Assembly: GCA_902562835.1 (NCBI GenBank)
Contig: CACEUX010000012.1
Location: 1 to 48,775, forward strand
Reading direction: 5' to 3'
DNA from: an uncultured Fidelibacterota bacterium
GTDB taxonomy: Bacteria; Fidelibacterota; Marinisomatia; Marinisomatales; UBA1611
DNA: 48,775 nt
A program made the position numbers and the translations under genes. Positions 384 to 32,554 of this stretch are shown here, piece by piece (the first letter of the stretch is position 1; the number at the start of each line of letters is the position of its first letter). Under the pieces are notes generated by a model. It saw nothing but the letters and a program-made list of their open reading frames with translations, was not told the DNA's origin and did not search any database.

Positions 384-386
384 AAC

Positions 387-434
387 CAAATATACCCATC
401 ATACCACAAACAAAAAACCACACGAATGTGGGGA
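387..434 (-). repeat. Terminator-promoter punctuation element, copy 1
   Basis: On the minus strand this reads hairpin CCCCACATTCGTGTGG, a T6 tract, a TGTGGTATGATGGG spacer and TATATTTG. The hairpin would end the upstream lipoprotein gene (458-835). The box lies three bases before the ATG at 383. Confidence 0.75.
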
Positions 435-457
435 TTGAGGTTTATAAATAGGTAAAG

Positions 458-835
458 TTATTTTGAAAGATTGTATTGAATACATATACTATCAAGAGTA
501 GTAAATGTTAATGCATCACCATACAGATATAGACTAATTCCATCTCCTTCACCTGTTAGTATATATGGATTCGAACCACTCCAGCCAAAGTTATCTGTCG
601 CATTATTCTGATATTCAATTACTCCTGTCAAGTCTTCATCAAATGTCATAGAAAAGTTTCCAGCAGGTCCATACTCGCTAGTAGCATCTGTACATTCACC
701 AGTACAATTGGAGTCTGAATAAGTACAAACTGATTCTAATGTCCAAGTACCAATTATTGGGTCCTTTGATTCTGTTGATTCATTTTCACAACTCCAAAGA
801 AAAATTAATAATGCAGTCAATAAATAGTTTCTCAT
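458..835 (-). CDS. Small lipocalin-like lipoprotein
   Basis: 125 aa. The N-terminus has a lipoprotein signal (LLIFLWSC, lipid-modified Cys near residue 16) and then an acidic, Ser-rich linker. The segment DPIIGTWTLESVC begins a likely lipocalin-like beta-barrel of the small Bacteroidota type, which usually occurs in periplasmic or outer-membrane-anchored lipoproteins of unknown ligand. Four further cysteines may form disulfides. An AAGGAG ribosome binding site precedes ATG 835. It resembles the larger lipoprotein at 8062-8697 in layout (signal, linker, GTW or GNW motif). The function is unknown. Confidence 0.7.
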   Translation of the reverse strand: MRNYLLTALLIFLWSCENESTESKDPIIGTWTLESVCTYSDSNCTGECTDATSEYGPAGNFSMTFDEDLTGVIEYQNNATDNFGWSGSNPYILTGEGDGISLYLYGDALTFTTLDSICIQYNLSK

Positions 836-850
836 AATATTCTCCTTGCC

Positions 851-899
851 TAAATCTAAACATCATCCCACTAACAAAAAACCCCACGAATGTGGGGCT
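851..899 (-). repeat. Terminator-promoter punctuation element, copy 2
   Basis: The perfect hairpin CCCCACATTCGTGGGG is followed by T6, the conserved spacer and TAGATTTA. It sits directly between the stop of the RidA-like gene (900) and the start of the lipoprotein gene (835). An AAGGAG site follows the box, so this unit has a short leader. Confidence 0.8.
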
Positions 900-1346
900 C
901 TATTTAAGGTTAGCAATACACTCAATTTCAACCAGAATACCATCTCCTAATTCTGCACCACCAAAAGTTGTTCTTGCAGGTTTATGACTTTTAAAATATT
1001 TCACATATTCTTCACTCATTGGCCCCCAATCATTGCCATTTGCAAGAATGCAGGTACATTTGACAACATCATCCATAGTTGCATTATGCTTCTTTAAAAT
1101 ATTTTGGATGTTTATCATTGTTTGATTTACTTGGGGCCTGATTCCTCCTTCAACAATTTTGTTATAATCATCATCAACATTGGCAATCTGACCTGATATA
1201 TACAACATATCACCAACTTGTACAGATTCAGAATATGGTACTGTATCAAGCTTGTGGGGATGATATGTTGTCTTGTTTTCTTTAGAACTATCACATCGCC
1301 ATAAAACAAACCCAAGCAAAAGCACTAATGGTAAATATCTATCCAT
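900..1346 (-). CDS. RidA/YjgF-family protein with lipoprotein signal
   Basis: 148 aa from ATG 1346; an in-frame TTG lies two codons upstream. The body matches RidA (reactive enamine/imine deaminase): YSESVQVGDMLYISGQI, the catalytic-type arginine in PARTTFGG and the acidic EIECIA near the C-terminus. RidA proteins are normally cytosolic trimers that hydrolyse 2-aminoacrylate. Here an N-terminal segment (LPLVLLLGFVLWRC) looks like a lipoprotein signal and would place the enzyme outside the cytoplasm. The start is three bases after TAGATTTG with no ribosome binding site, so it may be leaderless. The family call is firm; export is inferred. Confidence 0.85.
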   Translation of the reverse strand: MDRYLPLVLLLGFVLWRCDSSKENKTTYHPHKLDTVPYSESVQVGDMLYISGQIANVDDDYNKIVEGGIRPQVNQTMINIQNILKKHNATMDDVVKCTCILANGNDWGPMSEEYVKYFKSHKPARTTFGGAELGDGILVEIECIANLK

Positions 1347-1349
1347 ACA

Positions 1350-1386
1350 CAAATCTACCCATCATCCCACTAACAAAAAACCTTGG
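1350..1386 (-). repeat. Terminator-promoter element, copy 3 (hairpin half lost)
   Basis: The promoter half (T6G, GTGGGATGATGG, TAGATTTG) is intact upstream of the RidA-like gene. The hairpin half is reduced to CCAAGG. No coding gene reads into this copy, because the next feature upstream has its own terminator at 1469-1496. Confidence 0.7.
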
Positions 1387-1404
1387 AAAAATGACCAGTG
1401 TATA

Positions 1405-1497
1405 CCCAGTGAATTCAGTCCAATTCAGCACTTTTTACCACTAAATAGACCAATCTTAGACTTAAAGCAAAAAACCCCACATAAGTAGGGTTTTTCG
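1405..1497 (-). repeat. Trailing repeat, copy 1, with terminator
   Basis: On the minus strand a terminator is followed by a conserved tail (AAGTCTAAGATTGGTCTATT, then GTGGTAAAAAGTGCTGAATT, then GGACTGAATTCACTGG). Related copies lie near 5235, 6671 and 10432. It carries no open frame. The function is unknown. Confidence 0.7.
1469..1496 (-). terminator. Intrinsic terminator after tRNA-Ser-like sequence
   Basis: Minus-strand hairpin CCCTAC-TTAT-GTGGGG (six pairs), flanked by A5 before and T6 after. It would terminate transcripts coming from the tRNA-like sequence at 1510-1583 and from the GH16 gene. Confidence 0.75.
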
Positions 1498-1509
1498 ACT
1501 GTAGAACTG

Positions 1510-1583
1510 CGGAGAGGGAGGGATTCGAACCCTCGAAGAGGCTATAAACCCCTTACTCACTTAGCAGGCTGAGTCCCCTCTAT
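1510..1583 (-). other. tRNA-Ser(GCU)-like sequence lacking the D-arm (TL1)
   Basis: The 3' 61 bases, from the anticodon loop CTGCTAA to the acceptor end CCTCTCCG, look like a class II tRNA-Ser. They include a six-pair variable arm (AAGGGG/CCTCTT) and a T-arm (GAGGG-TTCGAAT-CCCTC). The 5' part is not a normal tRNA: there is no D-arm, the 5' anticodon strand is wrong, and only five acceptor pairs (AGAGG/CCTCT) can form. The total is 74 nt instead of about 88-90. It may be an integration-site remnant or a reduced tRNA-like RNA. It is not called as a functional tRNA. Confidence 0.7.
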
Positions 1584-1620
1584 TAGTAATATTTGACCAG
1601 TGTATCTATAGTGGGAATTG
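1584..1620 (-). repeat. Conserved 5' flank of tRNA-Ser-like sequence TL1
   Basis: These 37 bases differ at about three positions from 11714-11750, upstream of TL2. Both contain ATACACTGGTC and both begin about ten bases after a stop codon. The duplicated unit therefore extends beyond the tRNA homology. ATACACTGGTC also occurs at 1393-1403, forming direct repeats about 200 bases apart around TL1. Confidence 0.6.
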
Positions 1621-1630
1621 AATCAATAAA

Positions 1631-3094
1631 CTATTTAAGAAGTATCATCTTCTTGGTCTGTCGGAAATCCCCTGCTTTAATACTGTAGAGATATAATCCT
1701 GCAGAAACTTGTAAACCTCTTTCATTCTGTCCATTCCAATCAATAGAATAGGTACCTGCAAATCTATAATCATTTAATATTTCTATCACCTTACCACCAT
1801 TAACATCAAATATATTGATACTTACATGTTCTCCATTTGAGATTGAATAAGATATGTTAGTTGATGGATTGAACGGATTAGGGTAGTTTTGATTTAGGGT
1901 AAAAGTATTAGATACAGTTTCTATTTGAATCGATAGTGTTGAGGCTTCGTATACCCTAACATAATCTATTTCCATTTCAGTTTCAGTAAAACTTGATTGA
2001 ATACTCTGCTCAATTGCAATATTTATCAGCAGGTATTGAGGAGAATCAAAGGGCCAAGTTTCAGAATTTTGAGTTTCAGGAGTATATGTATAGTGGACAT
2101 ATCCATTAACACTAAAAATCATTTGTTCTGAAGTCCACTCAAGCGAATAAATATTAAATTGGGTTGTCGCATTTGAAATATATTGGCCACCATGATTAAT
2201 TGTCCCTCCATAACTAGAAGGTGTATGTAATGCACTTTGAACATAATTTTGATTGGCTCCCCAATGTTCCATAATATCAATTTCTCCACAGGAAGGCCAT
2301 GATGTTGTCCCATAACCTTGGGTCTGCCAATATGCTCCTGGCTCATTTATATTTTGCCCTAGCATCCAAATAGCAGGCCAAGTTCCAATTCCTTCAGGTA
2401 GTTTTGCTCGCACCTCTACTTTACCATATGTAAGAGCATATTTTGAGTTTAGCCTTGCCGATGTGTATTCTTTAGTCTGTCCTTGGTCAGTATATGTTTC
2501 TTTTTTGGCAACTATTTTTAATGTACCATCACTGACATAAGAATTATCTACTCGATCTGTGTAATGTTGAATTTCATTATTATACCAACTATAACCATTT
2601 GGTAACTGTGTTTGGTGAAACCATTTTGAAGAATCTATCGCTCCATTACCATCGAACTCATCATTCCAAATGAGTGTATACTCAAGGGAGCCACTTTCAC
2701 AGATCTCATTACAACTTCCGAAACAAAAAGTTCCTTCTACTATGTCACTATCACCAACACTTACTAATCTGTCAAAATATTCACCAACAGCACAGCCACC
2801 ATCGATGAGACCATTATCACCTTCCCAACCTGGGCCATCCCAATAATCATAATATCCATTCCTGAATTTGTATGTGTAGTCTCCAGATTCAAGTTCAGTT
2901 GTCAATCCCCAAGTCCCATCCCCATTGTCAGTCATTTCAATACCACTGGGGCCATTTAAATTCGATCCTGAAACATATACTGCAGGATAGTTTCCCTGTC
3001 CTGCAACCACTGTCTCTTCTGACATATCAACAATAAAAGTAACTTGAGCAGCATTAGTAATAGTTATAAATGATAGAATACAAATAAATCGCAT
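1631..3094 (-). CDS. Secreted GH16 family beta-glucanase (laminarinase-like) with sorting tail
   Basis: 487 aa from ATG 3094, which has an AAAGGA site; an upstream in-frame extension lies inside the repeat element. The order is: signal peptide (MRFICILSFITITNA); a beta-sandwich module (VTFIVDMS ... DNGDGTW ... YTYKFRNG, residues ~18-135); the GH16 catalytic domain (~140-385) with GEIDIMEHWG, containing the E-x-D-x-x-E nucleophile/acid pair; and a C-terminal Por/T9SS-type sorting domain (NQNYPNPFNPST ... KKMILLK). GH16_3 enzymes cut beta-1,3-glucans such as laminarin. No secretion-system gene lies nearby. Substrate is inferred. Confidence 0.92.
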   Translation of the reverse strand: MRFICILSFITITNAAQVTFIVDMSEETVVAGQGNYPAVYVSGSNLNGPSGIEMTDNGDGTWGLTTELESGDYTYKFRNGYYDYWDGPGWEGDNGLIDGGCAVGEYFDRLVSVGDSDIVEGTFCFGSCNEICESGSLEYTLIWNDEFDGNGAIDSSKWFHQTQLPNGYSWYNNEIQHYTDRVDNSYVSDGTLKIVAKKETYTDQGQTKEYTSARLNSKYALTYGKVEVRAKLPEGIGTWPAIWMLGQNINEPGAYWQTQGYGTTSWPSCGEIDIMEHWGANQNYVQSALHTPSSYGGTINHGGQYISNATTQFNIYSLEWTSEQMIFSVNGYVHYTYTPETQNSETWPFDSPQYLLINIAIEQSIQSSFTETEMEIDYVRVYEASTLSIQIETVSNTFTLNQNYPNPFNPSTNISYSISNGEHVSINIFDVNGGKVIEILNDYRFAGTYSIDWNGQNERGLQVSAGLYLYSIKAGDFRQTKKMILLK

Positions 3095-3108
3095 AGAATA
3101 TCCTTTTC

Positions 3109-3155
3109 CAAATCTACCCATCATCGCACAAACAAAAAACCCCACGAATGTGGGT
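3109..3155 (-). repeat. Terminator-promoter punctuation element, copy 4
   Basis: The hairpin CCCACATTCGTGGGG, T6 tract and conserved spacer are followed by TAGATTTG, 15 bases upstream of the GH16 start. It follows the thioesterase gene, which ends at 3172. Confidence 0.8.
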
Positions 3156-3171
3156 ATGGATTAATTAGAGA

Positions 3172-3597
3172 TTAATTGTACTTAATTGGTTTTTCAATGA
3201 GATAAGAGGTATGCATCAAAGTAGTTGCTATTTGACCCTCTTCGTCAAAAAGTTCACCTCGAGTAGTTGCAATCTTTTTGCCTTTTTTTATTATTGATGC
3301 TCTGGCTTTAACCTTTCCCTTAATTAGAGGTCGATGATGCATAGTATGTAAATCTGTAGACGCTGGATATACTCTTCCTTTAGCTTCAATTATAATTAGT
3401 AAACTTGTTACATCATCAAGCATTGCTGTCATCATACCACCTTGAACTGAACCATCAGGATTTAAAGAAAAATCATTAAATTCGCCTTCAAGTTCAAGTT
3501 TTCCCTGGCTGTAACTAATGAGTTTGAAATTGAATAATTTTCCTGTTCCACCATTTTTCTTATGAAAAGAAATATATTTATCTAAACTGTATTTCAA
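3172..3597 (-). CDS. PaaI-type hotdog-fold thioesterase
   Basis: 141 aa, cytosolic, with no signal. The segment DGSVQGGMMTAMLDDVTSLL matches the 4HBT/PaaI active-site helix, where Asp is the catalytic-type residue. It is followed by TDLHTMHHRPLIKGKVKARA and a C-terminal strand, as in acyl-CoA thioesterases. The length fits the family. The only plausible start is TTG at 3597, preceded by GGAAGAGG. The substrate acyl-CoA cannot be told from sequence. It may share a transcript with the methyltransferase gene upstream, since no punctuation element separates them. Confidence 0.85.
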   Translation of the reverse strand: MKYSLDKYISFHKKNGGTGKLFNFKLISYSQGKLELEGEFNDFSLNPDGSVQGGMMTAMLDDVTSLLIIIEAKGRVYPASTDLHTMHHRPLIKGKVKARASIIKKGKKIATTRGELFDEEGQIATTLMHTSYLIEKPIKYN

Positions 3598-3659
3598 TTA
3601 ATACCTCTTCCTTAAATTTAAAAAATATCCGAGGTTGTATTTCAGAATTTTATGTACAA

Positions 3660-3685
3660 TAATTATTCGACCAGTATATCTTTAG
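3660..3685 (-). repeat. Isolated ATACACTGGTC-type repeat
   Basis: The minus strand reads AAAGATATACTGGTCGAATA shortly after the stop of the methyltransferase gene. It matches the AGATACACTGGTCAAA core found upstream of both tRNA-Ser-like copies, but no tRNA-like sequence follows. Confidence 0.45.
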
Positions 3686-3704
3686 ACAAAGTTATACTCT
3701 GTTT

Positions 3705-4160
3705 TCAGATCCACCTTCTTACATTTTCTTTATATTTCAAAAATTCATCTTTGAATAAGTTAATCAAAGCATTTTCTTCCGGTATAATTTGAAAGAAGTT
3801 TAAATATAAAATAAATAATGGAATTAAGAATAAACCTCCAATTGGGTTTAGTATAGTGCTAATTCCAGACAGCACTAATAATAAACCCAAATACATAGGA
3901 TTTCTTGAGAATTTATAAACCCCACTGACTATTAATTTTGTAGCATTAGAAGGTTTTAATGGAGTAATTGTAGTTTTATATTTTTTAAATGAAATAATTG
4001 CTGATAAAATAATGATTATGCCAAAAATTATAATGATAGAACCAAAAACATCTCCCCACCCAATTTCGATTTTGGGAAATATATTTTTTGTATAATTGAT
4101 TAAAAAACCAAAGGTTAATGCAACTAAAGGAGGGGGAAATTTAGTTTTTATGTTCATCAT
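3705..4160 (-). CDS. Integral membrane methyltransferase (isoprenylcysteine/phospholipid methyltransferase type)
   Basis: 151 aa with about four hydrophobic segments. The motif YKFSRNPMYLGLLLVLSG (residues ~82-99) is the signature of the ICMT/PEMT superfamily, in which R-N-P-x-Y helps bind S-adenosylmethionine. C-terminal IPEENALINLFKDEFLKYKE matches the conserved E-E ... F-x-x-Y-x-x-x-V region. Bacterial members methylate lipids or small molecules in the inner membrane; the substrate here is unknown. Two adjacent ATGs (4160, 4157) are possible starts. Confidence 0.85.
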   Translation of the reverse strand: MMNIKTKFPPPLVALTFGFLINYTKNIFPKIEIGWGDVFGSIIIIFGIIIILSAIISFKKYKTTITPLKPSNATKLIVSGVYKFSRNPMYLGLLLVLSGISTILNPIGGLFLIPLFILYLNFFQIIPEENALINLFKDEFLKYKENVRRWI

Positions 4161-4168
4161 CTTTAAAA

Positions 4169-4214
4169 TAATCTATCAATCATCCCACAAAAAAAAACCC
4201 CACGAATGTGGGGC
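4169..4214 (-). repeat. Terminator-promoter punctuation element, copy 5
   Basis: The perfect hairpin CCCCACATTCGTGGGG is followed by a T9 tract and TAGATTAT. It separates the barrel-protein gene (ends 4235) from the membrane methyltransferase gene (starts 4160). Confidence 0.75.
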
Positions 4215-4234
4215 TGGCATAAAATTTTTTATGC

Positions 4235-4624
4235 TTAATTTTCAGGTATTGGTTGTATGTCTCCAAAATTAATATTCAAACCCATTCTCATACTATTTGA
4301 ATTATCATCTGCCATAATAAATTCTAGATCTAGAGCAATATTATCAATTATATCATAAGTGGCACCTATTGTATACTCAGGGTTAACGCCATCGTGACCA
4401 AGTCCAATTTTTCCAAATCTCCAACCCGTATATATCCTATAGTCAATGCCATCAGTGTCAAATCCAGTAAACCTATTTTTGCCTAAATCAAATTGTAACC
4501 CAATGGCATCTGTAACTTGTATATCATTGTCAATTTGATCATATCTAATGGAAATAACTGGAGAAATATCTCTTGAAATAATAATTGTAGATAATAGCAA
4601 AATAATTACACTAATCTTTTTCAT
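4235..4624 (-). CDS. Small secreted beta-barrel-like protein A
   Basis: 129 aa with a signal peptide (MKKISVIILLLSTIIIS). The rest alternates polar and hydrophobic residues in short strands with glycine turns (IGLQFDLGKNRF, YRIYTGWRFGKIGLG, MRMGLNINFG), as in small outer-membrane beta-barrels. The strand order parallels the neighbouring gene product (4667-5059), so the two are probably paralogues. The 42-base gap contains no punctuation repeat, so they likely form one transcript. No named family was recognised. Confidence 0.65.
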   Translation of the reverse strand: MKKISVIILLLSTIIISRDISPVISIRYDQIDNDIQVTDAIGLQFDLGKNRFTGFDTDGIDYRIYTGWRFGKIGLGHDGVNPEYTIGATYDIIDNIALDLEFIMADDNSNSMRMGLNINFGDIQPIPEN

Positions 4625-4666
4625 ATGATAATATCCTTTTTATCAATTTTCTTTTTGATAACTATT

Positions 4667-5059
4667 TTAGAACCCCCATCTTAAATTAATTGATATGGAT
4701 GTCTCTTCATTATCTGCACTTTTCAAATAGTCAATAGATGTACCCAAAGTTGTATTAATTTTACCTGTTCCTTTCCACCAGTCGTAACCTAGGCCAGTGA
4801 GAGCAGAGGTGGTACCATCATTATCTTTAATACCCAACCTGAAAGTGATTCCGGCAGGTAGATTGCCTGCTTTGACCATCATCCCATAAATGGTGTCATA
4901 ACCAAAACTCATATTATCATTAATATCAAAATCAAGACCAAACCCATTACTTACCTCAACTGCATTTCCAGAGATATTCCCATATGCCATGGTCTTGTTA
5001 AATGTAATTGCAGAATATGAGTATGAAGTAAATAATAAGAATAGAATTAGTTTTTTCAT
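4667..5059 (-). CDS. Small secreted beta-barrel-like protein B
   Basis: 130 aa from ATG 5059, just after GGATC and followed by a clean signal peptide (MKKLILFLLFTSYSYSA). ATG 5089 would add ten residues ahead of the signal and is less likely. Repeating amphipathic strands (NGFGLDFDINDNMSFGYDT, TSISINLRWGF with a terminal Phe) suggest an outer-membrane barrel ending in an aromatic residue, a typical BAM recognition feature. The following gene product looks like a paralogue. The ligand or role is unknown. Confidence 0.65.
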   Translation of the reverse strand: MKKLILFLLFTSYSYSAITFNKTMAYGNISGNAVEVSNGFGLDFDINDNMSFGYDTIYGMMVKAGNLPAGITFRLGIKDNDGTTSALTGLGYDWWKGTGKINTTLGTSIDYLKSADNEETSISINLRWGF

Positions 5060-5467
5060 TGTTAGATCCTTTATTTTTGACATCTTCAACTTATAGTGAG
5101 TCTGATATAAAGAAATATAAAACTCATATTATCACTAAAAAATTGAGACATCACAATTTTCAATACTATAATCTATTAATTATTAACAGTAAGTATATGT
5201 GACATTTTAGTAAAAAACATAACCAGTTTCGGTTCAAGTGAATTAAATGCATTTCAGCACTTTTTACCAAAATACAGACCAATCTTTGTCTATAAGCAAA
5301 TTTTTAAATAATGTTTTTGATTCTAAAGGTTCATTTTTATCGAGTTCTCCCTTATTTTTATAGCCAAGCCAGTTTTTGTCCAGCTTCAACATTACAGTAC
5401 TTAATAGTACTTATGTATTTTGTATGTCATTGAGAAGATATTTAATTCTGATTATAATTATCTTATA
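5060..5467. other. Gene-free stretch with one trailing-repeat copy
   Basis: These 408 bases have no convincing reading frame on either strand. The only recognisable item is a diverged trailing repeat at about 5235-5301. The rest is AT-rich and featureless to my reading. Confidence 0.6.
5235..5301 (-). repeat. Trailing repeat, copy 2 (diverged, no hairpin)
   Basis: The minus strand keeps GATTGGTCTGTATTTTGGTA, then AAAAAGTGCTGAAATG and AATTCACTTG, matching the trailing block next to TL1. The terminator hairpin and the tRNA-like part are absent. Confidence 0.6.
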
Positions 5468-6055: not shown

Positions 6056-6070
6056 AAAGTCTCCTTATCC

Positions 6071-6120
6071 TAAATCTAACCACCATCCAACAAACAAAAA
6101 ACCCCACCAATTTAGAGATT
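6071..6120 (-). repeat. Terminator-promoter element, copy 6 (hairpin decayed)
   Basis: The promoter half is kept (T6G, TTTGTTGGATGGTGG, TAGATTTA). The 5' arm of the hairpin has diverged (CTAAATTGGTGGGG), so no good stem forms. The upstream neighbour (6161) is divergent, so no transcript would need ending here. Confidence 0.7.
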
Positions 6121-6160
6121 GATGTTGTTCTATTTATATAAAGCAGTTTTTAATTTATAG

Positions 6161-6622: not shown

Positions 6623-6670
6623 TTTATTAAATAATTGGTTTTAATAAACTTTAACCTGCAGTGACAGAAT

Positions 6671-6750
6671 CAGTGAATTCAGTCCAATTCAGCCCTATTT
6701 ACCACTAAATGGACCAATATCACACTAAACCCCAGAAAAGTTGGGTTTTT
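6671..6750 (-). repeat. Trailing repeat, copy 3, with weak terminator
   Basis: The minus strand carries AAAAACCCAAC-TTTT-CTGGGGTTT, then TTGGTCCATTTAGTGGTAAA and GCTGAATTGGACTGAATTCA. It closely matches the block beside TL1. It lies downstream of the esterase gene. Confidence 0.65.
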
Positions 6751-6762
6751 CATTTGTAGAAC

Positions 6763-6790
6763 TGTGAACAGGAAGGGATTCAGGCACTTG
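6763..6790 (-). other. Decayed 3' end of a tRNA-Ser-like sequence (TL4)
   Basis: Only the acceptor/T-loop end is recognisable: CTGAATCCCTTCCTGTTCAC followed by AGTTCTACA. It aligns with TCGAATCCCTCCCTCTCCGC AGTTCTACA of TL1. No fold is possible. It sits immediately before trailing repeat copy 3, in the same order as at TL1. Confidence 0.5.
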
Positions 6791-6853
6791 TGCTCCCTTA
6801 TCTAGATATCTGATTAAAATGTACCCATTTCGTAAATAGAGAATGCCTAAATA

Positions 6854-7975
6854 TTAATTATTAAGGGCCATCCATTCATTAATCACATCTCTTGATAACT
6901 TTGGAAATTCGTGACCCATTTCTAATTCTTTCAATTGTATTTTTGCTCCTAAACTAAGAAACGTATTTGATATGTGTGTTGAATTAATCGGTTTTATTGT
7001 GGTATCGTATTGACCATTGATCACTAGTCCTTTTAAGGAAGTATACTTAGATCTATCTGTTGCAGTTTGGTAAACAACAGGTAGAAATGTGTTATGAGCG
7101 ATAAATCCATCTATTTTATCAGGATGTTCAAGGGCTATCTTACATGCCATGACTCCCCCTTGGCTATTACCACCAACGAATATCCCTCTAGGATTAATTT
7201 TTTCTTTTTCAATGATTTTATCAATACTAAATAATATTGCTTCACAGCTCTCATTAATTTGTTGCTCATTAAAAGTAGTATCACCAAGAAAAGGAATATG
7301 AAAATCAAACCAGGTCCATTCATTTGAGCCCAGTGATAATTCGTAAGGGGCCTGAAGAATTATTTTTATATAACTATCATCAAATTGATTTATCATGTGA
7401 GGCTCATAATACCATATATGGCCTGAATGACCGTGCATGAAAAACAATACGTCTTTTTTTTCAACATTATCTAATGGTTTCTTTATAATATAATTCAGAG
7501 GTCTTTTACCATCATGATAAAAGTTTTCATCTTGAACGGTTTTCTTTTCCCAATCAAAAGGTTCTTGGCGTATTGTACCATCTTCATACCATCTTTTTAT
7601 AGAAATAATGGTACCACCTATTGTTCTTCTTTCAAAATATTTTTGACCGTTTATGTTCCAATTGGATTCTATCTTAGTGTCACCAATGATTTCTGAACTT
7701 TCCAAAACAGTGCCATCTATCCCTAAGTAAGAAAACTGGATAGTTATACCATCTTTAAAGGTTGCTTTAATTTGTACTTCCCCTGAAGAATAATGCTTGA
7801 CTGCTTTTCCATTAAATGGAGTATCAGAAATCTTGACACCTTTCCCATGAAATAGAGAATTAGGTTTCAAATGATAAACCAATCCTCCTCTTTTAACAAG
7901 TTTTGAAGAATCCACAGGATTGGAATTGTTACAAGCAAAAACTAATAATAATATAATAGATAATAATTTTTTAAT
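6854..7975 (-). CDS. Lipoprotein alpha/beta-hydrolase (esterase/carboxylesterase type) with MORN-like N-terminus
   Basis: 373 aa if started at ATT 7975. The first ordinary start (GTG 7915) would discard a perfect lipoprotein signal (IKKLLSIILLLVFAC) that is in frame upstream, and GAGGG lies six bases before the ATT. Residues ~25-140 contain MORN/YwqK-like strands (FNGKAVKHYSSGEVQIKATF). The C-terminal half is an alpha/beta-hydrolase: FMHGHSGH for the oxyanion region, nucleophile elbow GGNSQGG, a late Asp (NGQYDTTIKP) and catalytic His (MGHEFP). It is probably a surface or periplasmic esterase of unknown substrate. Confidence 0.85.
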   Translation of the reverse strand: MKKLLSIILLLVFACNNSNPVDSSKLVKRGGLVYHLKPNSLFHGKGVKISDTPFNGKAVKHYSSGEVQIKATFKDGITIQFSYLGIDGTVLESSEIIGDTKIESNWNINGQKYFERRTIGGTIISIKRWYEDGTIRQEPFDWEKKTVQDENFYHDGKRPLNYIIKKPLDNVEKKDVLFFMHGHSGHIWYYEPHMINQFDDSYIKIILQAPYELSLGSNEWTWFDFHIPFLGDTTFNEQQINESCEAILFSIDKIIEKEKINPRGIFVGGNSQGGVMACKIALEHPDKIDGFIAHNTFLPVVYQTATDRSKYTSLKGLVINGQYDTTIKPINSTHISNTFLSLGAKIQLKELEMGHEFPKLSRDVINEWMALNN

Positions 7976-7991
7976 GATATTCCCTCTATTA

Positions 7992-8040
7992 CAATTTACC
8001 TATCATCCAAGAAAAAAAACCCCACGAATGTGGGGCTTGA
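7992..8040 (-). repeat. Terminator-promoter punctuation element, copy 7
   Basis: The perfect hairpin CCCCACATTCGTGGGG, a T8 tract, a diverged spacer and TAAATTG lie between the lipoprotein gene at 8062 and the ATT-started esterase gene. Confidence 0.75.
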
Positions 8041-8061
8041 AACGCAATAGTAATTTTGATT

Positions 8062-8697
8062 TTAATCTGCCCTGGTAAGATTCCACCTCTCACAATAAGA
8101 ATCATCGTCTACACCCATTAACATCTCAATTGTAGCGCTACTTTCGTCTAATTCCAGGCTACCAACTTGAGGCTCATTTGGCGAAACACAATCAGAGTCA
8201 GATATTGGGTTCTGTGCAGTACCATTTGGCACACAATATCCTGTACAATCATCAAAATAGACATCAATTTCATATCCTTCAGGACATGTTATGCAATCAT
8301 AATCACCCTGAGCATCTTCCTCAGAATCATAAAAACCACAGGTCGAACAAGGACCATAAGTATCGTTACCAGAAAAACAATTAGTGAAAGTCTGTAAGGA
8401 GTTATCTAATGACATACTTATTTCATTATTGGAAGAGTTTAAGGTATAGTTAAAATTTGCGTTATAACTATAACCCATATAATTCATTGAGGTTGTGATA
8501 GTGGTCTCAGTAAATATTAATGTTCCAGATAAAGATAAATCTGGAGAGCCATTACATCCAGAGCTACCTTCAAAAATCTCAAGATTGACATTCCAGTTAC
8601 CTACCAAATTAAAGTCTGGAGTATCATTTGAATCTTCTTTTTCTTCGCATCCGAAAAAAATTGTGATAGCTAAAAACATAAAAATTAAATTTTTCAT
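8062..8697 (-). CDS. Cys-rich lipocalin-like lipoprotein
   Basis: 211 aa from ATG 8697; an upstream ATG at 8727 would put a polar stretch ahead of the signal. Lipobox region LAITIFFGC, then an acidic linker. The segment FNLVGNWNVNLEIFEG opens a lipocalin-like domain similar in layout to the product of 458-835. Residues ~108-150 form a Cys-rich insert (CSTCGFYDSEEDAQGDYDC, then CPEGYEIDVYFDDCTGYC), probably disulfide-bonded or metal-binding. The function is unknown. Confidence 0.7.
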   Translation of the reverse strand: MKNLIFMFLAITIFFGCEEKEDSNDTPDFNLVGNWNVNLEIFEGSSGCNGSPDLSLSGTLIFTETTITTSMNYMGYSYNANFNYTLNSSNNEISMSLDNSLQTFTNCFSGNDTYGPCSTCGFYDSEEDAQGDYDCITCPEGYEIDVYFDDCTGYCVPNGTAQNPISDSDCVSPNEPQVGSLELDESSATIEMLMGVDDDSYCERWNLTRAD

Positions 8698-8932
8698 AAT
8701 TAATCCCTTTGAATAATTAAAAATCAAAATTAATGGTTTTTATTCAAATAAAAAAACTGACGCTAGGAAAAATTAAAGATTAACTTACTTTTGCTTATAC
8801 TCAAGTAAACTGATACTAGAATTATTTTTAACTAAAATAAATTAATAAATATGCTATTATTAACCCAGTTATCGCACTTAACGCACTAATGAGATCTTTT
8901 TAGTCTTTTGGAATAGTTTTTCCTTTTTATAA

Positions 8933-8982
8933 CCAAATCTACCCATCATCCAATTAACAAAAAAACCCACGAATGTGGGGCT
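8933..8982 (-). repeat. Terminator-promoter punctuation element, copy 8 (no gene downstream)
   Basis: The hairpin CCCCACATTCGTGGG, T7 tract, spacer and TAGATTTG are intact. The next ~230 bases on the minus strand hold only a 16-codon frame (TTG at about 8935) before the next gene at 8697. It may mark a lost gene or drive a long leader for the Cys-rich lipoprotein. Confidence 0.65.
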
Positions 8983-8988
8983 TCTAAC

Positions 8989-9150
8989 TTAGGATTTATA
9001 TATAATTTTCTTAAAGAAAGTGTAAATCGCTAGAACCATATCATTTCTTGCTACAAAGCGACTACCACAACTTGGGCAATTAGATAAAAAGGAAAAGTAT
9101 TCTTTTATTTTGGTTCTTTTCCATTTATGTGAACAAGAAATACAAATCAT
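8989..9150 (-). CDS. 53-aa zinc-ribbon protein
   Basis: A small frame with its own punctuation elements on both sides. The protein starts MICISCSHKWK and contains two CxxC knuckles, CISC (residues 3-6) and CPSC (25-28), spaced as in rubredoxin-like zinc ribbons. A basic, hydrophobic C-terminus follows (AIYTFFKKIIYKS). ATG 9150 comes three bases after TAGATTTA with no ribosome binding site. The cysteine pattern and the bounded cassette position argue that it is real. The role is unknown; it could bind nucleic acid or act as a metal-binding adaptor. Confidence 0.75.
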   Translation of the reverse strand: MICISCSHKWKRTKIKEYFSFLSNCPSCGSRFVARNDMVLAIYTFFKKIIYKS

Positions 9151-9152
9151 AT

Positions 9153-9203
9153 CTAAATCTACATATCATCCCACAAACAAAAAACCCCACGAATGTGGGG
9201 CTT
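9153..9203 (-). repeat. Terminator-promoter punctuation element, copy 9
   Basis: The perfect hairpin CCCCACATTCGTGGGG, T6, spacer and TAGATTTA. It ends the ion-channel gene (9224) and starts the zinc-ribbon gene (9150). Confidence 0.8.
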
Positions 9204-9223
9204 GAGTCTTCTTTAAATTCACT

Positions 9224-10354
9224 TTATTCAATTGATTCATAATGTTTGGCTATCTTATCTAATCTTTTTTCAATTTTATTTAATCTCATTTCAACATATA
9301 ATTTTAAATTATCAGTTGATTGGTTGCTATCATCACCTACCATAAGGGTAGTCAAAGTCGCTGTAAAGACACTAATTAATACCATACCAACGAAAACAAG
9401 TATTGTTGTCAAAACCATACCCCCAGTCGTCTGTGGATTATGTATATCTGCAAAACCTCCTGTTACTATTGCATTAAATGACCACCATAAACTTTCTTTG
9501 TAATTATCAATCCCTCCAACATTATTATTATGCTCTACATAAGTAATTATAAATGCGCCCATAACCAAAAGAATAAAACTATATACAAAAGTTCTTTTCA
9601 TTAATTTGACATCAAATAATTCAGATATGGTATGCATCCCTTTCCATATAAATGAAACAAGTTTGAAAATTTTAAAAATTCTCAAGAATCTTAAAATTCT
9701 TAATAGTCGAAATAACCTTATTGCCCTACCAGTTCTTGCGAGTTCATAACTTGGAATGGGGATTGAGGTTACAAAATCTAACCAATGGTTTCTGAGATAC
9801 CATTTTTTTGATCTAGCGAGGTAAAGTTCTATCCAAAAATTCAATTGGAAGAATAGGCAACATATTGCATCAATAAGGAAAATATTATACAGAATATTTT
9901 TACTTAAGTTTTCATTCATTGTTTCAAACGATAACAATCCAAGAACAATAAAGATTAAAAATGCAATAATGTAGTCTTTAATTTTTGAAAAACTTGCTAT
10001 GCCTGTAATTGTGTTTTGTTTTTGATTTAATTTTTTCCTTTGGATTATTTTCTCTAATCTTGAATCTTCTTCCTCATATCTATTGTAAAATCTTTGAATT
10101 TCTCTGACTTCTCGCTGCTTTGAGACAACTCTTCTTAATGGAGTCGTGAAATTTTTTGGTAATAATTTTGTCTCACCATAAAATTCTTTGTATACCTTAG
10201 CACCCTTTATAGAATGACTAATCTTTTCTATTTCATCAAATAAATTATTTTGTTTGGATTTAATCTCTGACTGCATAGCAAGTAATGTATCAATATCAAA
10301 ACTCTCAAGATTTATTTGTTTTAGTTCTTCTATTTTATTTTTTATGGATTTCAT
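9224..10354 (-). CDS. Voltage-gated-type ion channel with atypical selectivity filter
   Basis: 376 aa. Residues 1-110 are a charged, helical, probably coiled-coil cytoplasmic domain. An Ion_trans-type channel follows: S1 (YIIAFLIFIVLGLLSF), S2-S3, an arginine-rich S4 (GRAIRLFRLLRILRFLRIFK), S5, and a pore helix/filter WWSFNAIVTGGFADIHNP, then S6. Canonical K+ filters read TVGYGD; here the aligned residues are TGGFAD. The extreme C-terminus is a short coiled coil. It is an inner-membrane cation channel by fold, but ion selectivity should not be assumed. The upstream box TATATTTA at about 10393-10400 may be its promoter. Confidence 0.88.
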   Translation of the reverse strand: MKSIKNKIEELKQINLESFDIDTLLAMQSEIKSKQNNLFDEIEKISHSIKGAKVYKEFYGETKLLPKNFTTPLRRVVSKQREVREIQRFYNRYEEEDSRLEKIIQRKKLNQKQNTITGIASFSKIKDYIIAFLIFIVLGLLSFETMNENLSKNILYNIFLIDAICCLFFQLNFWIELYLARSKKWYLRNHWLDFVTSIPIPSYELARTGRAIRLFRLLRILRFLRIFKIFKLVSFIWKGMHTISELFDVKLMKRTFVYSFILLVMGAFIITYVEHNNNVGGIDNYKESLWWSFNAIVTGGFADIHNPQTTGGMVLTTILVFVGMVLISVFTATLTTLMVGDDSNQSTDNLKLYVEMRLNKIEKRLDKIAKHYESIE

Positions 10355-10431
10355 ATAAATATTTGTAACAACTTAATTTGATTCCTTTTGTAAATATAAC
10401 CTTATCACAATAAATAAAGCCAGTGACTGGT

Positions 10432-10516
10432 CCAGTGAATTCATTCCATTTCAGCCCTTTTTACTCCTAAATAGACCAATCTTAGACTTAAAGCAAAAAC
10501 CCCCTAATATGGGGCT
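10432..10516 (-). repeat. Trailing repeat, copy 4, with terminator
   Basis: The minus-strand hairpin GCCCCATATTAGGGGG and T5 are followed by GCTTTAAGTCTAAGATTGGT, CTATTTAGGAGTAAAAAGGG and TGAATTCACTGG. It lies between the repeat-protein gene (ends 10570) and the ion channel, without any tRNA-like sequence. Confidence 0.7.
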
Positions 10517-10569
10517 TGATGTATAAATTTTTTAACCAAATTAAAATCCTTCACTAGCAAAACTACCCG

Positions 10570-11415
10570 TCAACTGTCCACAGTCGCCCCATCCCCTGGC
10601 CAGGGTCCACTCGTCCCTCCCAAATCAATATCAGTAGATAAAAATGCAATGTAACCCAAGATTAAAATTAGAATACAGCAATTTATAATATATTTTGAAT
10701 TTTCTTTCATATTTCCCATTTTAATATATTTTCTAAGTTGTTCTTCGGGTTCTATTAAAATACCATTTTCAAAAACCTTTGTACCATCAGATAATTTCAG
10801 TTCTTGAATCTCACTGATATTTATTGACAGTTTTGCAGAAAACATGCGGGAACTATTTAAAGGAACTTTCGTTGGTCGTGAACTAACTAAAGAGACTGTT
10901 GATGGTAAGGTGCCAGGTGGTAAAAGAACTTTAAGTATTATTTTATCATTACCATATTTTACCAATGCACCAGTATATATGCTCTTATCTTTCAAGGTCA
11001 GAGTAGAATTTTTCATTGGTTTTTGAATCTCGGATTTTCTTTTTTTGTAACCATTTTCTTTCATATTTTTAATAAATAGTTCTTGAATGGTAGAATTACT
11101 TTTTTTTTTGGCTTTCTCAGCTTGAATTGTAGAAAAGTAGTTACCATCTCTTATACTTTTTATATGTTTTTCATTATTTGCTAAGATAACGCCATTCTCA
11201 ATCAAACTTCTACCATCAGATAATTTCAGTTCTTTAATATCCTTAATACTGATAGACATTTTTGCAGATGGTAAAGCTTTAAATATTATTTCATCATCAT
11301 CAAATTTTATCAATGTTCCAGTATAGACAGTCTTATCTTTCAAAACTAATTTATCAAAATCAGTCTGTGCCCATACAATGCCTGTAATCAAAAGTAAAAT
11401 AATATACCTGCGCAT
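10570..11415 (-). CDS. Secreted/membrane protein with duplicated beta-domain
   Basis: 281 aa from ATG 11415 (signal MRRYIILLLITGIVWA). A longer frame to 11562 exists but runs through punctuation copy 10, so that start is rejected. Two copies of a ~50-residue motif are visible: LVLKDKTVYTGTLIKFDDDE ... IKELKLSDGRSLIENG (residues ~23-75) and LTLKDKSIYTGALVKYGNDK ... IQELKLSDGTKVFENG. This is a clear internal duplication. A hydrophobic segment near the C-terminus (INCCILILILGYIAFL) may anchor it. No family was recognised. Confidence 0.75.
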   Translation of the reverse strand: MRRYIILLLITGIVWAQTDFDKLVLKDKTVYTGTLIKFDDDEIIFKALPSAKMSISIKDIKELKLSDGRSLIENGVILANNEKHIKSIRDGNYFSTIQAEKAKKKSNSTIQELFIKNMKENGYKKRKSEIQKPMKNSTLTLKDKSIYTGALVKYGNDKIILKVLLPPGTLPSTVSLVSSRPTKVPLNSSRMFSAKLSINISEIQELKLSDGTKVFENGILIEPEEQLRKYIKMGNMKENSKYIINCCILILILGYIAFLSTDIDLGGTSGPWPGDGATVDS

Positions 11416-11418
11416 TTC

Positions 11419-11467
11419 CAAATCTACCCAACATCCCATAAACAAAAAAACCCACGAATGTGGGGCT
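11419..11467 (-). repeat. Terminator-promoter punctuation element, copy 10
   Basis: The hairpin CCCCACATTCGTGGG, T7, spacer and TAGATTTG, then GAA and the ATG at 11415. The start is three bases from the box with no ribosome binding site. Confidence 0.8.
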
Positions 11468-11594
11468 AAATAGTCCACACAAAGGTCAGATTTCTTAATT
11501 CTGATGACCTTGCAAAAGTCTAATGGGAATTTGAAGTGGGACCCAAATGGGCCCCAATCCAAATTCCACCCATAATTTTGCTATATAAAACAAA

Positions 11595-11624
11595 GAAAAA
11601 AACCCCCTGATGACGGGGGTTTTC
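11595..11624 (-). terminator. Intrinsic terminator after tRNA-Ser-like TL2
   Basis: Minus-strand hairpin AAAACCCCCGTCATCAGGGG with T7 after it. It differs in sequence from the TL1 terminator, so the two tRNA-like units do not share one trailing region. Confidence 0.8.
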
Positions 11625-11639
11625 TCTTCGTGAAAGGTG

Positions 11640-11713
11640 CGGAGAGGGTGGGATTCGAACCCACGAACAGGCTATAAACCCGTTACTCCCATAGCAGGTT
11701 GAACCCCCTCTAT
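11640..11713 (-). other. tRNA-Ser(GCU)-like sequence lacking the D-arm (TL2)
   Basis: The same 74-nt length and architecture as TL1, with compensatory differences: variable arm AACGGG/CCTGTT (AAGGGG/CCTCTT in TL1) and T-stem GTGGG/CCCAC (GAGGG/CCCTC in TL1). The T-loop TTCGAAT and the acceptor end CCTCTCCG are identical. The D-arm is missing and the 5' anticodon strand does not pair well. The paired changes mean both copies descend from, or still are, folded RNAs. Confidence 0.7.
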
Positions 11714-11750
11714 TACTAATGTTTGACCAGTGTATCTGTAGTGGGAATTG
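11714..11750 (-). repeat. Conserved 5' flank of tRNA-Ser-like sequence TL2
   Basis: Nearly identical to 1584-1620 (about three differences in 37 bases), including CAATTCCCACTA and ATACACTGGTC. Confidence 0.6.
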
Positions 11751-11759
11751 TACATATTT

Positions 11760-12263
11760 CTAAAATATTTTTGCAGAATTTGAGTTTAAGCGATATTCAT
11801 AGAAATCACTTGCCGATAGAACGATACTAGATGTGTCAAGTTCTATTCCTTTTTCCAGTGCTAAATGATGCTTCCAGTTTTTTGCCTGTTTTTCAGACAA
11901 TTCTAATTTGGTGAATATTCCTTCTGCAATAATATTTTTACCTTTTGCTGATAATGGAAATACAATTTCACCATCAGTGACTTTGATTCGTATACTTGAA
12001 TCTGAATTATAATCTTTGACCTGTAGCCAACAGCCTCGCATTGGACAAACTTCAGTGATAATTCCATTTACTAAAAGCTTTTGCCCTAAACTTTCACTAG
12101 CTGACAATAACAAGTCATTGACATCATAGATAATTCCTTTACTAGGATGGCTACCATAATATCCAATTGAATCAACTTTATTTAATAAATCTTTTTCAGA
12201 TTGTTTTTTAAAACAGCCTAATTGAATGAATATTATAATTAATAAAATATTGTTGTAACTCAT
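11760..12263 (-). CDS. DUF4920-like lipoprotein
   Basis: 167 aa with lipobox region IIIFIQLGC. The core GQKLLVNGIITEVCPMRGCW resembles the DUF4920 family, an OB-fold-like periplasmic domain with a conserved C-x-x-x-G-C-W motif that may bind metal or form a disulfide. It is followed by IRIKVTDGEIVFPLSAKGK and IIAEGIFTK, as expected. ATG 12263 lies four bases after TAGATTTT and lacks a ribosome binding site. The function is unknown. Confidence 0.75.
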   Translation of the reverse strand: MSYNNILLIIIFIQLGCFKKQSEKDLLNKVDSIGYYGSHPSKGIIYDVNDLLLSASESLGQKLLVNGIITEVCPMRGCWLQVKDYNSDSSIRIKVTDGEIVFPLSAKGKNIIAEGIFTKLELSEKQAKNWKHHLALEKGIELDTSSIVLSASDFYEYRLNSNSAKIF

Positions 12264-12265
12264 AA

Positions 12266-12314
12266 CTAAAATCTACCCATCATCCCACAAACAAAAAACC
12301 CCACGAATGTGGGT
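12266..12314 (-). repeat. Terminator-promoter punctuation element, copy 11
   Basis: The hairpin CCCACATTCGTGGGG, T6, GTGGGATGATGGG and TAGATTTT. It ends the thioredoxin/12340 transcript and starts the DUF4920-like gene. Confidence 0.8.
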
Positions 12315-12339
12315 TCTTATATATTTAATCTCAGAAAAA

Positions 12340-12756
12340 TTATCTTAATTCTACAAAGTCATTATAATTACTCATAGACTCTTCAGTAACATAAGTACCT
12401 AATTTGTTCCATAAAGACATTAATCCATTTTCTTCCATGATCGTGTTAAACCAGTCAGATGTCCCTTGTTCGGGAATCATTGCATTTCTAACAATTTGTG
12501 AATCAAAAGTAATTATTAGCGCATAACTATCCACATCTATACCTCTGTCTGATTTAGTTATAAAATTTCTTGACCCTGGTACAACTCTATTAAAACTTGG
12601 ATTGTATTCTTCTAAAGCAAAATTCTCAAAGTCTTTGACATTTACATTATCTTTAAGTTCTAAAAACCTTACAGCCACTACTTCACCCTTACCTGAATAT
12701 GTTATCTGACCATAAGCAAATCCAATTAATAAAATAGTTGATATATATTTCCTCAT
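12340..12756 (-). CDS. Secreted protein of unknown function
   Basis: 138 aa with a signal peptide (MRKYISTILLIGFAYG). The mature part (VVAVRFLELKDNVNVKDFENF ... YALIITFDSQIVRNAM) has the strand-helix-strand rhythm of dimeric alpha/beta-barrel proteins, but no family signature is certain. Its AAGGAG site and ATG lie 30 bases after the thioredoxin-like stop without a punctuation element, so the two genes are probably co-transcribed. Confidence 0.6.
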   Translation of the reverse strand: MRKYISTILLIGFAYGQITYSGKGEVVAVRFLELKDNVNVKDFENFALEEYNPSFNRVVPGSRNFITKSDRGIDVDSYALIITFDSQIVRNAMIPEQGTSDWFNTIMEENGLMSLWNKLGTYVTEESMSNYNDFVELR

Positions 12757-12786
12757 AATAATCTCCTTATTAAAGTTTAATCTTAA

Positions 12787-13290
12787 TCATTCAATATTAT
12801 TTTCTAATAGAATATCAATTTGATTTTTCATTTCAGCCTCATCGCCAGCAATATAACCATTTCTTATCCACTTCACTTCGCCGCCTTTTGCAACAAGTAT
12901 TGCTGTTGGCATTTGCTTCTCAGAAAATCTGTTGAATAATGTATTATTTTGATCTATGGCAACATAAAATTGAAAATCATTCTGTTCCAAATAAGTTTTT
13001 ACTTTTTCAAGAAAACCTTTTCTTTCCATATTTATCATCAACACCTTAAATCCTTCTTTGGAATATTCCCGATGGTATTGATTATGAAATTCCATTATAC
13101 TTTTACAGGGCTCACACCAAGTAGCCCAAAAATCTACTACTAATGGCCCATCCTCTACTAATTTATGGAAGGATGTTATAGTCCCATCCATTAATTTAAT
13201 TTTCAAATCTGGTATTTTTTCCCCAATATCTATTTTCCCACCAAATGCGATAGTACTTAACAAGAGAAAAATCTTTGCATATTTATTCAT
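12787..13290 (-). CDS. Periplasmic TlpA/ResA-type thioredoxin
   Basis: 167 aa from ATG 13290 (GAGGAG site); the in-frame start at 13308 lies too close to the promoter box. A signal peptide (MNKYAKIFLLLSTIAFG) precedes a thioredoxin fold with active site FWATWCEPCKS (C-x-x-C near residue 62) and cis-Pro KQMPTAILV. The family reduces disulfides outside the cytoplasm, for example in cytochrome c maturation. No cytochrome genes are nearby, so its client is unknown. Confidence 0.9.
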   Translation of the reverse strand: MNKYAKIFLLLSTIAFGGKIDIGEKIPDLKIKLMDGTITSFHKLVEDGPLVVDFWATWCEPCKSIMEFHNQYHREYSKEGFKVLMINMERKGFLEKVKTYLEQNDFQFYVAIDQNNTLFNRFSEKQMPTAILVAKGGEVKWIRNGYIAGDEAEMKNQIDILLENNIE

Positions 13291-13305
13291 AATTAACTCC
13301 TCACC

Positions 13306-13353
13306 CAAATCTACCCATCATCCCACAAACAAAAAACCACACGAATGTGAGGC
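13306..13353 (-). repeat. Terminator-promoter punctuation element, copy 12
   Basis: The hairpin CTCACATTCGTGTGG is weaker than in other copies. T6, GTGGGATGATGGG and TAGATTTG follow. A GAGGAG ribosome binding site comes after the box, so this unit is not leaderless. Confidence 0.75.
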
Positions 13354-13725: not shown

Positions 13726-13742
13726 AATAAACGAGGGATTAA

Positions 13743-32550: not shown

Positions 32551-32554
32551 ATCA

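Follow-up and report, generated by a model that had tools for sequence, protein, structure and literature searches.

Precise single-gene capture is classically exemplified by integrons, in which promoterless cassettes are driven by a common Pc, and group IIC introns enter behind terminator hairpins. In Acinetobacter plasmids, as reported (PMC6449649, PMC13141974), discrete gene modules of C/D types, bounded by the short pdif sites (28-bp palindromic XerC/D sites) and devoid of a recombinase of their own, are shuffled between replicons. Tycheposons, or additive flexible genomic islands, are large units set by tRNA ends that lie behind tRNA genes, with repeated tRNA 3' ends and, in some copies, a tyrosine recombinase (PMC10872708).

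The locus described here lies in a window of 48,775 nucleotides (the whole stretch of DNA analysed), which is one contig of a MAG from Neomarinimicrobiota (SAR406). Like integrons and CALINs, its arrays consist of one-orientation single-gene units with unrelated cargo, a short recombination-like border site and whole-unit exchange between genomes; unlike them, they lack attC boxes and a linked IntI, their site is a predicted terminator plus promoter, their units would be self-expressing and they stand behind tRNA genes rather than attI. The likeness to pdif modules covers discrete modules, a short bounding site, shuffling and the lack of a module-borne recombinase, but the element has no palindromic arms, keeps one orientation and is chromosomal; where pdif sites alternate in orientation, 131 of 134 neighbouring element pairs lie on the same strand, which bears out the single orientation given in the initial annotation; the unrelated single genes that it described are likewise supported. 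As in tycheposons (PMC10872708), the arrays sit behind tRNA genes, tRNA 3' ends are repeated and some of the arrays have a tyrosine recombinase; the exchanged unit, by contrast, is a single gene with a T-tract joint, nested inside such an island. Like group IIC introns, the arrays favour the T-tracts of intrinsic terminators, but their units are protein genes with predicted promoters, and neither intron RNA nor reverse transcriptase was seen in the units read. The reading favoured here, with a probability of roughly 0.58, is that Neomarinimicrobiota possess an integron-like cassette system whose units are joined at TTTTTTGTTT, with the element as their joint.

Element copies and cassette genes in the window

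Thirteen element copies, all on the minus strand, are present in the window (Table 1), twelve of them within 387-13352 and one at 32554-32587, as initially annotated (twelve in 13 kb and one near 32.56 kb). With up to three mismatches, the hairpin CCCCACATTCGTGGGG occurs 11 times in the window, where shuffles give a mean of 0.11; because one of these matches (1475-1490) is the terminator of a tRNA block, ten of the 13 copies carry the hairpin. The plan thought to be common to all copies holds for those ten, while copies 1350-1383 and 32554-32587 have no hairpin and copy 6071-6115 has only half of one; the left and right halves of the element are separable modules, the hairpin being absent from some copies. 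A gene start had also been placed shortly after every copy: most distances are 4-5 nt or about 15-16 nt, with no obvious gene after copy 8934-8980. Two plus-strand matches from a loose scan were judged not to be element copies. Across the whole genome the pattern GATGATGGGTAGATTTG, again with up to three mismatches, has 44 matches versus 2 for the reversed pattern. At the site matching the solitary copy 13, genome G001 has an element variant followed by a different gene. An Rfam search of the window returned two tRNAs and nothing else.

Table 1. Coordinates of element copies, cassette genes and tRNA-like blocks in the window
Feature	Position	Strand	Remarks
Cassette gene, DUF6265	1..383	-	truncated by contig end; same cassette in G001
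Element copy 1	387..433	-	hairpin 418-433, T6GTTT, promoter half
Cassette gene, DUF5004 lipoprotein	458..835	-	
Element copy 2	851..897	-	
Cassette gene, RidA-like	900..1352	-	
Element copy 3	1350..1383	-	right half only; tRNA-Ser-half block on its left
tRNA-Ser(GCT)-type 3' half block	1508..1620	-	att-like remnant; tRNA half read by eye
Cassette gene, GH16	1631..3094	-	type IX sorting tail
Element copy 4	3109..3155	-	
Cassette gene, PEMT/ICMT-type methyltransferase	3705..4160	-	
Element copy 5	4169..4213	-	
Element copy 6	6071..6115	-	single hairpin arm recognisable
Cassette gene, alpha/beta hydrolase	6854..7975	-	lipoprotein-like
Element copy 7	7993..8035	-	
Element copy 8	8934..8980	-	no obvious gene after copy
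Cassette gene, 53 aa	8989..9150	-	zinc-ribbon-like
Element copy 9	9154..9200	-	heads 53-aa cassette common to another genus
Cassette gene, repeated domain	10570..11413	-	secreted-like N terminus
Element copy 10	11419..11465	-	
Second tRNA-Ser 3' half block	11638..11750	-	89% identical to block 1508..1620
Cassette gene, DUF4920	11760..12263	-	
Element copy 11	12268..12314	-	
Cassette gene, redoxin/thioredoxin-like	12787..13308	-	PF08534, PF00578
Element copy 12	13306..13352	-	array's first copy, behind folD
Degenerate tRNA-Ser-like remnant	13675..13735	-	array/core (folD) border; by eye
Element copy 13	32554..32587	-	solitary, without hairpin

Terminator and promoter signatures

The -7 box of the element fits TAnnTTTG; 16 nt separate it from the end of the T-tract's first TTTG, which lies near the position of the Bacteroidota -33 element, as had been noted at the outset. 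The sequence has the marks of a Bacteroidota-type sigma-A promoter (TAnnTTTG at -7, TTTG near -33) as well as those of an intrinsic terminator, in which a G+C-rich hairpin is followed by a T-run. In 134 of 305 element copies an ATG follows the TAnnTTT box at exactly 4 nt, compared with a box 3-5 nt before the ATG in 1 of 107 core ORFs; this suggests that the mRNAs of the units may be leaderless, and the placement of the box argues that every unit would have its own promoter. Stems of at least 5 bp occur in 158 of 255 elements versus 13% in shuffles, and they covary: pair (-9,-2) is A-T in 122, C-G in 19 and G-C in 18 cases (z 9.4). The stem-to-box distance, being blurred by G-T pairs, was left unused. 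The stem covariation and the ATG placement fit the initially annotated fusion of a terminator to a promoter, both activities being predicted from sequence. The hairpin with TTTTTTGTTT also serves as an ordinary terminator type in the same genomes, so that its recurrence is partly unremarkable; its occurrence before other sequences was downgraded as proof of a bare joint, many such cases being ordinary tRNA or gene terminators.

Distribution of the arrays

Of 199 Neomarinimicrobiota genomes, at least 60 contain the element, nearly all of them within one order; covariance-model copy counts per genome are lower bounds, about 30 candidates at most having been scored in each. Genes for tRNA-Leu, Ala, Glu, Pro, Lys and Arg lie upstream of the arrays, which start behind them, and a tRNA-Lys half is located in L031. 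As in tRNA-integrated islands, a tRNA gene marks the start and tRNA 3' ends are repeated. Viral contigs contain no exact element match, so no phage vehicle is indicated.

Ancestry switches within the joint

Among element pairs with homologous flanks, 36 share only the downstream gene (head), 19 only the upstream gene (tail) and 2 both, the independent pairs behind the comparison being few (22 and 13). Of rare variants, tail pairs share 49-62% across the hairpin and the flank beside it; from the start of the T-tract rightwards they share only 2 of 94, which is the chance level. Head pairs show near-chance sharing in the left part and 36-71% from column 13 rightwards. As judged from these variants, the switch point is confined to TTTTTTGTTT, its placement being limited to about 10 nt because columns 3-12 vary too little. 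The element is therefore not the single dispersed repeat that it was first taken for, but a composite of two halves, each with its own inheritance, that abut within TTTTTTGTTT. Moreover, the head is joined at the same T-tract to differing left neighbours that are alike in little else, including tRNA blocks, CACTGGTCATTTT blocks and tRNA terminators such as that of tRNA-Ala in G021; head-like sequence also directly follows the tRNA-Ala terminator in G002, G000 and G024, though G001 lacks it there. Neither an excised circle nor an empty site was seen at single-base resolution.

Exchange of whole cassettes between genomes

Single cassettes recur at 87-96% identity in other genera or species amid unrelated neighbours. 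Whole element-bounded cassettes are common to L041 and L091 of G012 (92.8%), L039 and L113 of G015 (95%), window positions 8957-9205 and G012 (87.6%), and window positions 1-430 and G001 (95.8%). The gain or loss of units exactly at element borders, which the initial annotation had proposed to look for between strains, is found in the comparison of G000 with G001. Three other breaks between these genomes (L036/L100, L038/L099 and L045/L098) lie off elements and are ordinary indels. As these cassettes show, related bacteria have exchanged units between species and genera, exactly at the seam.

Proposed mechanism and alternatives

In the mechanism proposed here, the mobile unit would be a full transcription unit that comprises a TTTGTTTGTGGGATGATGGGTAGATTTG promoter head, often with a leaderless start, one gene, and a hairpin terminator with TTTTTTGTTT; units would be joined end to end via this common string, which would double as T-tract for the terminator upstream and -33 region for the promoter downstream. 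With a terminator carried by every unit, a further unit could always enter where the previous one ends, and one-orientation rows would accumulate behind tRNA-gene terminators and tRNA-half blocks, the latter probably being leftovers of tRNA-targeting integrative elements. Joining would be carried out by a site-specific recombinase, possibly a tyrosine recombinase that tRNA-targeting elements provide in trans, or a host Xer protein. A narrower version, at somewhat less than even odds, is a gene-capture route with no relation to integrons: a dedicated recombinase would act in trans to join transcription units at intrinsic-terminator T-tracts, and one 10-nt string would be terminator end, promoter -33 and recombination core. 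Since captured genes would arrive insulated and self-expressed, neither their place in the row nor how far they lie from a shared promoter would matter, a different answer to the expression problem from that of integrons. The system looks like a second solution to single-gene capture, found in a marine phylum that is abundant but uncultured, and would represent a new cassette machine if a recombinase were found; units of the SAR406 flexible genome can be catalogued, classified by their head and tail, and tracked in metagenomes, and the overlap of terminator, promoter and joint offers a ready compact part for expression arrays.

Site-specific joining at T6GTTT is favoured over its chief rival, RecA-dependent homologous or homeologous recombination, by which near-identical 50-nt terminator-promoter repeats would reshuffle units after DNA uptake, the repeat being conserved because it functions as terminator and promoter. 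This rival, unlikely though serious, agrees with the high similarity and direct repetition of the elements, with T6GTTT as their most conserved stretch and hence the easiest place for strand exchange, and with the very few tyrosine recombinases of element-rich genomes such as G021 and G012; however, it predicts crossovers also in the 20-nt conserved right half, where tail pairs share only 2 of 94 rare variants, and heads are joined to left neighbours with little in common beyond the T-tract. It is less probable still that only regulation is at work: a strong shared promoter, to which a specialised regulator might bind, and a widely used kind of terminator would flank ordinary horizontally acquired genes, and arrays would exist because insulated expression is selected for in genomic islands, no special joining being involved. 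The fit of the right half to TAnnTTTG, the occurrence of same-type terminators elsewhere and the conserved ATGAT and TAGATTT, which may point to protein binding, agree with such an account, but it predicts neither a fixed zero-spacer fusion across the order nor an exact ancestry switch in the T-tract.

The element is short, repeated, intergenic and hairpin-bearing, as would be a small dispersed repeat of MITE or REP type that inserts whole between genes; yet its halves differ in history and travel with different genes, the gene pairs flanking it are not conserved, and the Y1 transposase (Y1_Tnp) has no match in G000, G001, G006, G009, G010, G012, G021 and G022, so that this origin is very improbable. 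One Y1 match is found in element-rich G031, and Y1 transposase was rejected as resident agent for the element-rich genomes without matches. An equally faint prospect is a divergent integron or CALIN with degenerate attC sites, which would share the cassette logic and for which true IntI (above the TIGR02249 cut-off) is present in 6 of 41 relatives. Against it, GTTRRRY occurs at the joint in 8 of 305 copies (16 in shuffles) and together with RYYYAAC in 0 of 305, which upholds the earlier description of integron-like logic without attC; the stretches examined around the IntI loci of the six relatives hold no element copy, the genome under study has two Xer-like tyrosine recombinases, both below the IntI cut-off, as its only candidates, and every unit has a promoter-like head.

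Xer-like inverted arms (11 bp around a 6-bp core) were not found at the joint, the best case matching 6 of 11. A serine recombinase was rejected as resident agent, since the Resolvase domain has no match in element-rich G000, G001, G006, G009, G010, G012, G021, G022 and G031. The arrays of G012 and G009 carry a tyrosine recombinase of the tRNA-gene-entering kind, 370 aa long in G012 at L089:8205-9317, and remnants occur in G001 and G012:C33 but not in the window; the initial description of the array as lacking an integrase thus holds for the window but not for its sister arrays. Neither this nor any other recombinase is linked to the joint: of 41 genomes, 11 carry the array-borne integrase family, G000, G021, G022 and G031 being among those without it, and it appears to target the tRNA anticodon loop rather than T6GTTT.

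A joint between two separable halves

The initial annotation described a dispersed element fusing a terminator to a promoter; its presence, orientation and distribution are confirmed by computation, but it is not a single repeat, since its halves are separable and meet in TTTTTTGTTT. Among 305 copies compared, a downstream gene shared by two copies seldom comes with related DNA upstream, and vice versa: 36 pairs agree only in the downstream gene (head pairs), 19 only in the upstream gene (tail pairs) and 2 in both. In tail pairs, rare variants left of the T-tract are in common at 62% and 49% (chance, 21% and 15%), and from the T-tract rightwards practically none are shared (2/94); in head pairs, sharing of rare variants is close to chance on the left and 36–71% on the right. 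The switch of ancestry lies in TTTTTTGTTT (columns 3–12), and a gapless identity analysis gives the same picture.

The consensus reads AAGCCCCACATTCGTGGGG-TTTTTTGTTT-GTGGGATGATGGGTAGATTT-GGATATG. Its left half is a predicted intrinsic terminator: 158 of 255 copies (13% in shuffles) have a stem of at least 5 bp immediately 5' of the T-tract, and the inner pairs covary (A-T, C-G and G-C at −9/−2; z 9.4). The hairpin of an alternative family is CCCCGC-AGTA-GCGGGG. One element contains a tandem duplication, TTTTTTGTTTGTGGGAAAATGGG, possibly a product of joining or slippage.

The sequence of the right half agrees with a sigma-A promoter of Bacteroidota, as first proposed from its TAnnTTTG box (reported at −12 to −5, with TTTG near −33). 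In 134/305 copies an ATG lies exactly 4 nt 3' of TAGATTT, so that the transcript start would coincide with it; transcripts would start and stop at the element, and such mRNAs would be leaderless, a class that is rare in Bacteroidota (3.7–5.5%). Among core ORFs, used as control, the box is 3–5 nt 5' of the ATG in 1/107. A second common class starts at an ATG ~15–28 nt away and has an AAGGAG-type site, read directly. Conservation of ATGAT, and of GA in TAGATTT, exceeds what a promoter requires. A second type of head, MTAGACATTTAGGACTRSTG, directly follows the hairpin and TTTTTTGTTT at several sites, and is perhaps a different promoter class joined at the same point.

Distribution and cargo

The thirteen copies initially annotated in the window were all recovered; a hairpin, claimed for each, is found in 10, with half of one in 1 and none in 2. 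The hairpin pattern has 11 matches in the window (0.11 expected), one within a tRNA block, and the promoter-half pattern has 44 in the source MAG (1.83 Mb, 77.7% complete; the window is its contig C12) against 2 for the reversed pattern.

When 84,980 species genomes were scanned for exact matches to the pattern, 66 stretches came up, almost all carrying the label Candidatus Neomarinimicrobiota/Marinimicrobia; the viral contigs scanned gave none. Of 41 relatives, 31 carry the pattern. Counting with a covariance model, as the initial annotation had suggested, was applied to 199 genomes from the phylum and detects the element in at least 60, of which 55 belong to the same order; G000, G012, G006 and G022 have at least ~30 copies each. 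Contig ends often fall within arrays (e.g. C2, C9 and C10 of genome G031), as expected for long repetitive rows. Two contigs binned outside the phylum, in MAGs labelled Candidatus Scalindua rubra (L209) and Bdellovibrionales (L204), also carry elements, by either transfer or misbinning.

The proposed single orientation holds for 131/134 pairs of neighbouring copies (median spacing, 1.06 kb). An ORF that starts with ATG and encodes 40 aa or more begins within 60 nt downstream of 169/236 copies (27% of random positions), and on the opposite side of only 15. The cargo is unrelated, as noted initially (redoxin, DUF4920, RidA, GH16 with a type IX tail, thioesterase, PEMT, hydrolase, ion channel); by a crude score, secreted-like N termini occur in 68/109 leaderless cassette genes and 29/107 core ORFs.

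Exchange of cassettes

Comparison between genomes shows exchange of cassettes. L041:841–1356 matches G012 L091 at 92.8%, bounded exactly element to element; L039:6172–6750 matches G015 L113 at 95%, from TTTTTTG of one element to past the hairpin and TTTTTTGTTT of the next; and window 8957–9205 matches G012 L087 at 87.6%. At the folD locus, both the flank (91%) and the cassette of the first kilobase (95.8%) are kept in G001, which has only ~1 kb where the window has ~13 kb. Gain or loss at element borders, a check proposed at the outset, is seen behind tRNA-Leu, where the difference between G000 and G001 consists of whole units, with homology picking up again at GGGGTTTTTTGTTTATGG; at the solitary 32.6-kb site both species have the element, followed by different genes.

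A stretch of ~270 nt coding for the type IX sorting tail recurs 3' in otherwise different cassette genes (L031, L036, L088, L089 and others), so cassettes may also recombine at that domain.

How units are joined

Units were most likely joined site-specifically at T6GTTT, presumably by an enzyme, and the tail of each would be the entry point for the next. The main rival, RecA-mediated exchange between repeats, is disfavoured by the sharpness of the ancestry switch and by joints to partners with little in common beyond the T-tract. As to the enzyme of site-specific joining, attC boxes are absent from the joint, as first stated, and so are Xer arms. The accompanying claim of no integrase stands for IntI, absent from the source genome, but arrays of G012 and G009 do contain a tyrosine recombinase. 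Genuine integron integrases exist in Neomarinimicrobiota (G031:C7:29920, G022:C79, G003:C156, G025:C76, G039 and G026, the last with several), and no element copies lie in the stretches analysed around IntI loci in other genomes. Element-rich genomes yielded no resolvase, and most of them no Y1 transposase either; only Xer-like proteins and the array-borne integrases, patchy in occurrence, remain as candidates. IntI-like tyrosine recombinases of G008:C20, G009:C74, G025:C21, G034:C145 and G035:C37 match TIGR02249 on both sides of positions ~178–238 but not over that region. A literature search of partial coverage found no paper on such a system.

Genomic setting

Genes for tRNA-Leu, -Ala, -Glu, -Pro, -Lys and -Arg precede arrays. 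A head is joined directly to the terminator T-tract of tRNA-Ala in G021; G002, G000 and G024 have head-like sequence directly 3' of that tRNA's terminator, and G001 lacks it. Left neighbours of some copies are blocks that contain the 3' half of a tRNA, from the anticodon loop onwards. G012:C33 and the end of G001:C10 carry remnants of tyrosine recombinases. These tRNA genes, tRNA halves and array-borne recombinases suggest that the rows are nested within integrative islands that target tRNA genes.

Members of a second repeat family consist of a 3' half resembling that of tRNA-Ser(GCT), which has a terminator of its own, followed by a GATTGGTCTATTTAGTGGTAAAAAGTGCTGAATTGGACTGAATTCACTGG block; the motif TACACTGGTCA lies on both flanks. 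In L031, an intact tRNA-Lys, a one-gene unit and a tRNA-Lys 3' half beginning in the anticodon loop follow one another, a minimal tRNA-targeted unit without integrase; blocks downstream contain tandem repeats, e.g. GGGACACA.

Coordinates of elements and associated features in the window and in other stretches (L) and genomes (G)
Feature	Stretch	Position	Detail
Element copies	window	387–13352	12 copies, minus strand
Element copy	window	32554–32587	1 copy
MTAGACATTTAGGACTRSTG heads	L195	2602, 5988	
MTAGACATTTAGGACTRSTG head	L165	4820	
MTAGACATTTAGGACTRSTG head	L148	2577	
MTAGACATTTAGGACTRSTG head	L199	1488	
MTAGACATTTAGGACTRSTG head	L201	2731	
Tandem duplication in element	L185	~1720–1790	TTTTTTGTTTGTGGGAAAATGGG
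tRNA 3' half blocks	window	1508–1620, 11638–11750	
tRNA 3' half block	L031		
tRNA-Ser(GCT)-like repeats	window	1406–1620, 11638–11750, 10432–10509, 6670–6747, 5235–5312	
tRNA-Lys unit	L031	9540–10620	
Tyrosine recombinase inside array	G012 L089	8205–9317	PF13102 + PF00589
Tyrosine recombinase inside array	G009 L109	2–772
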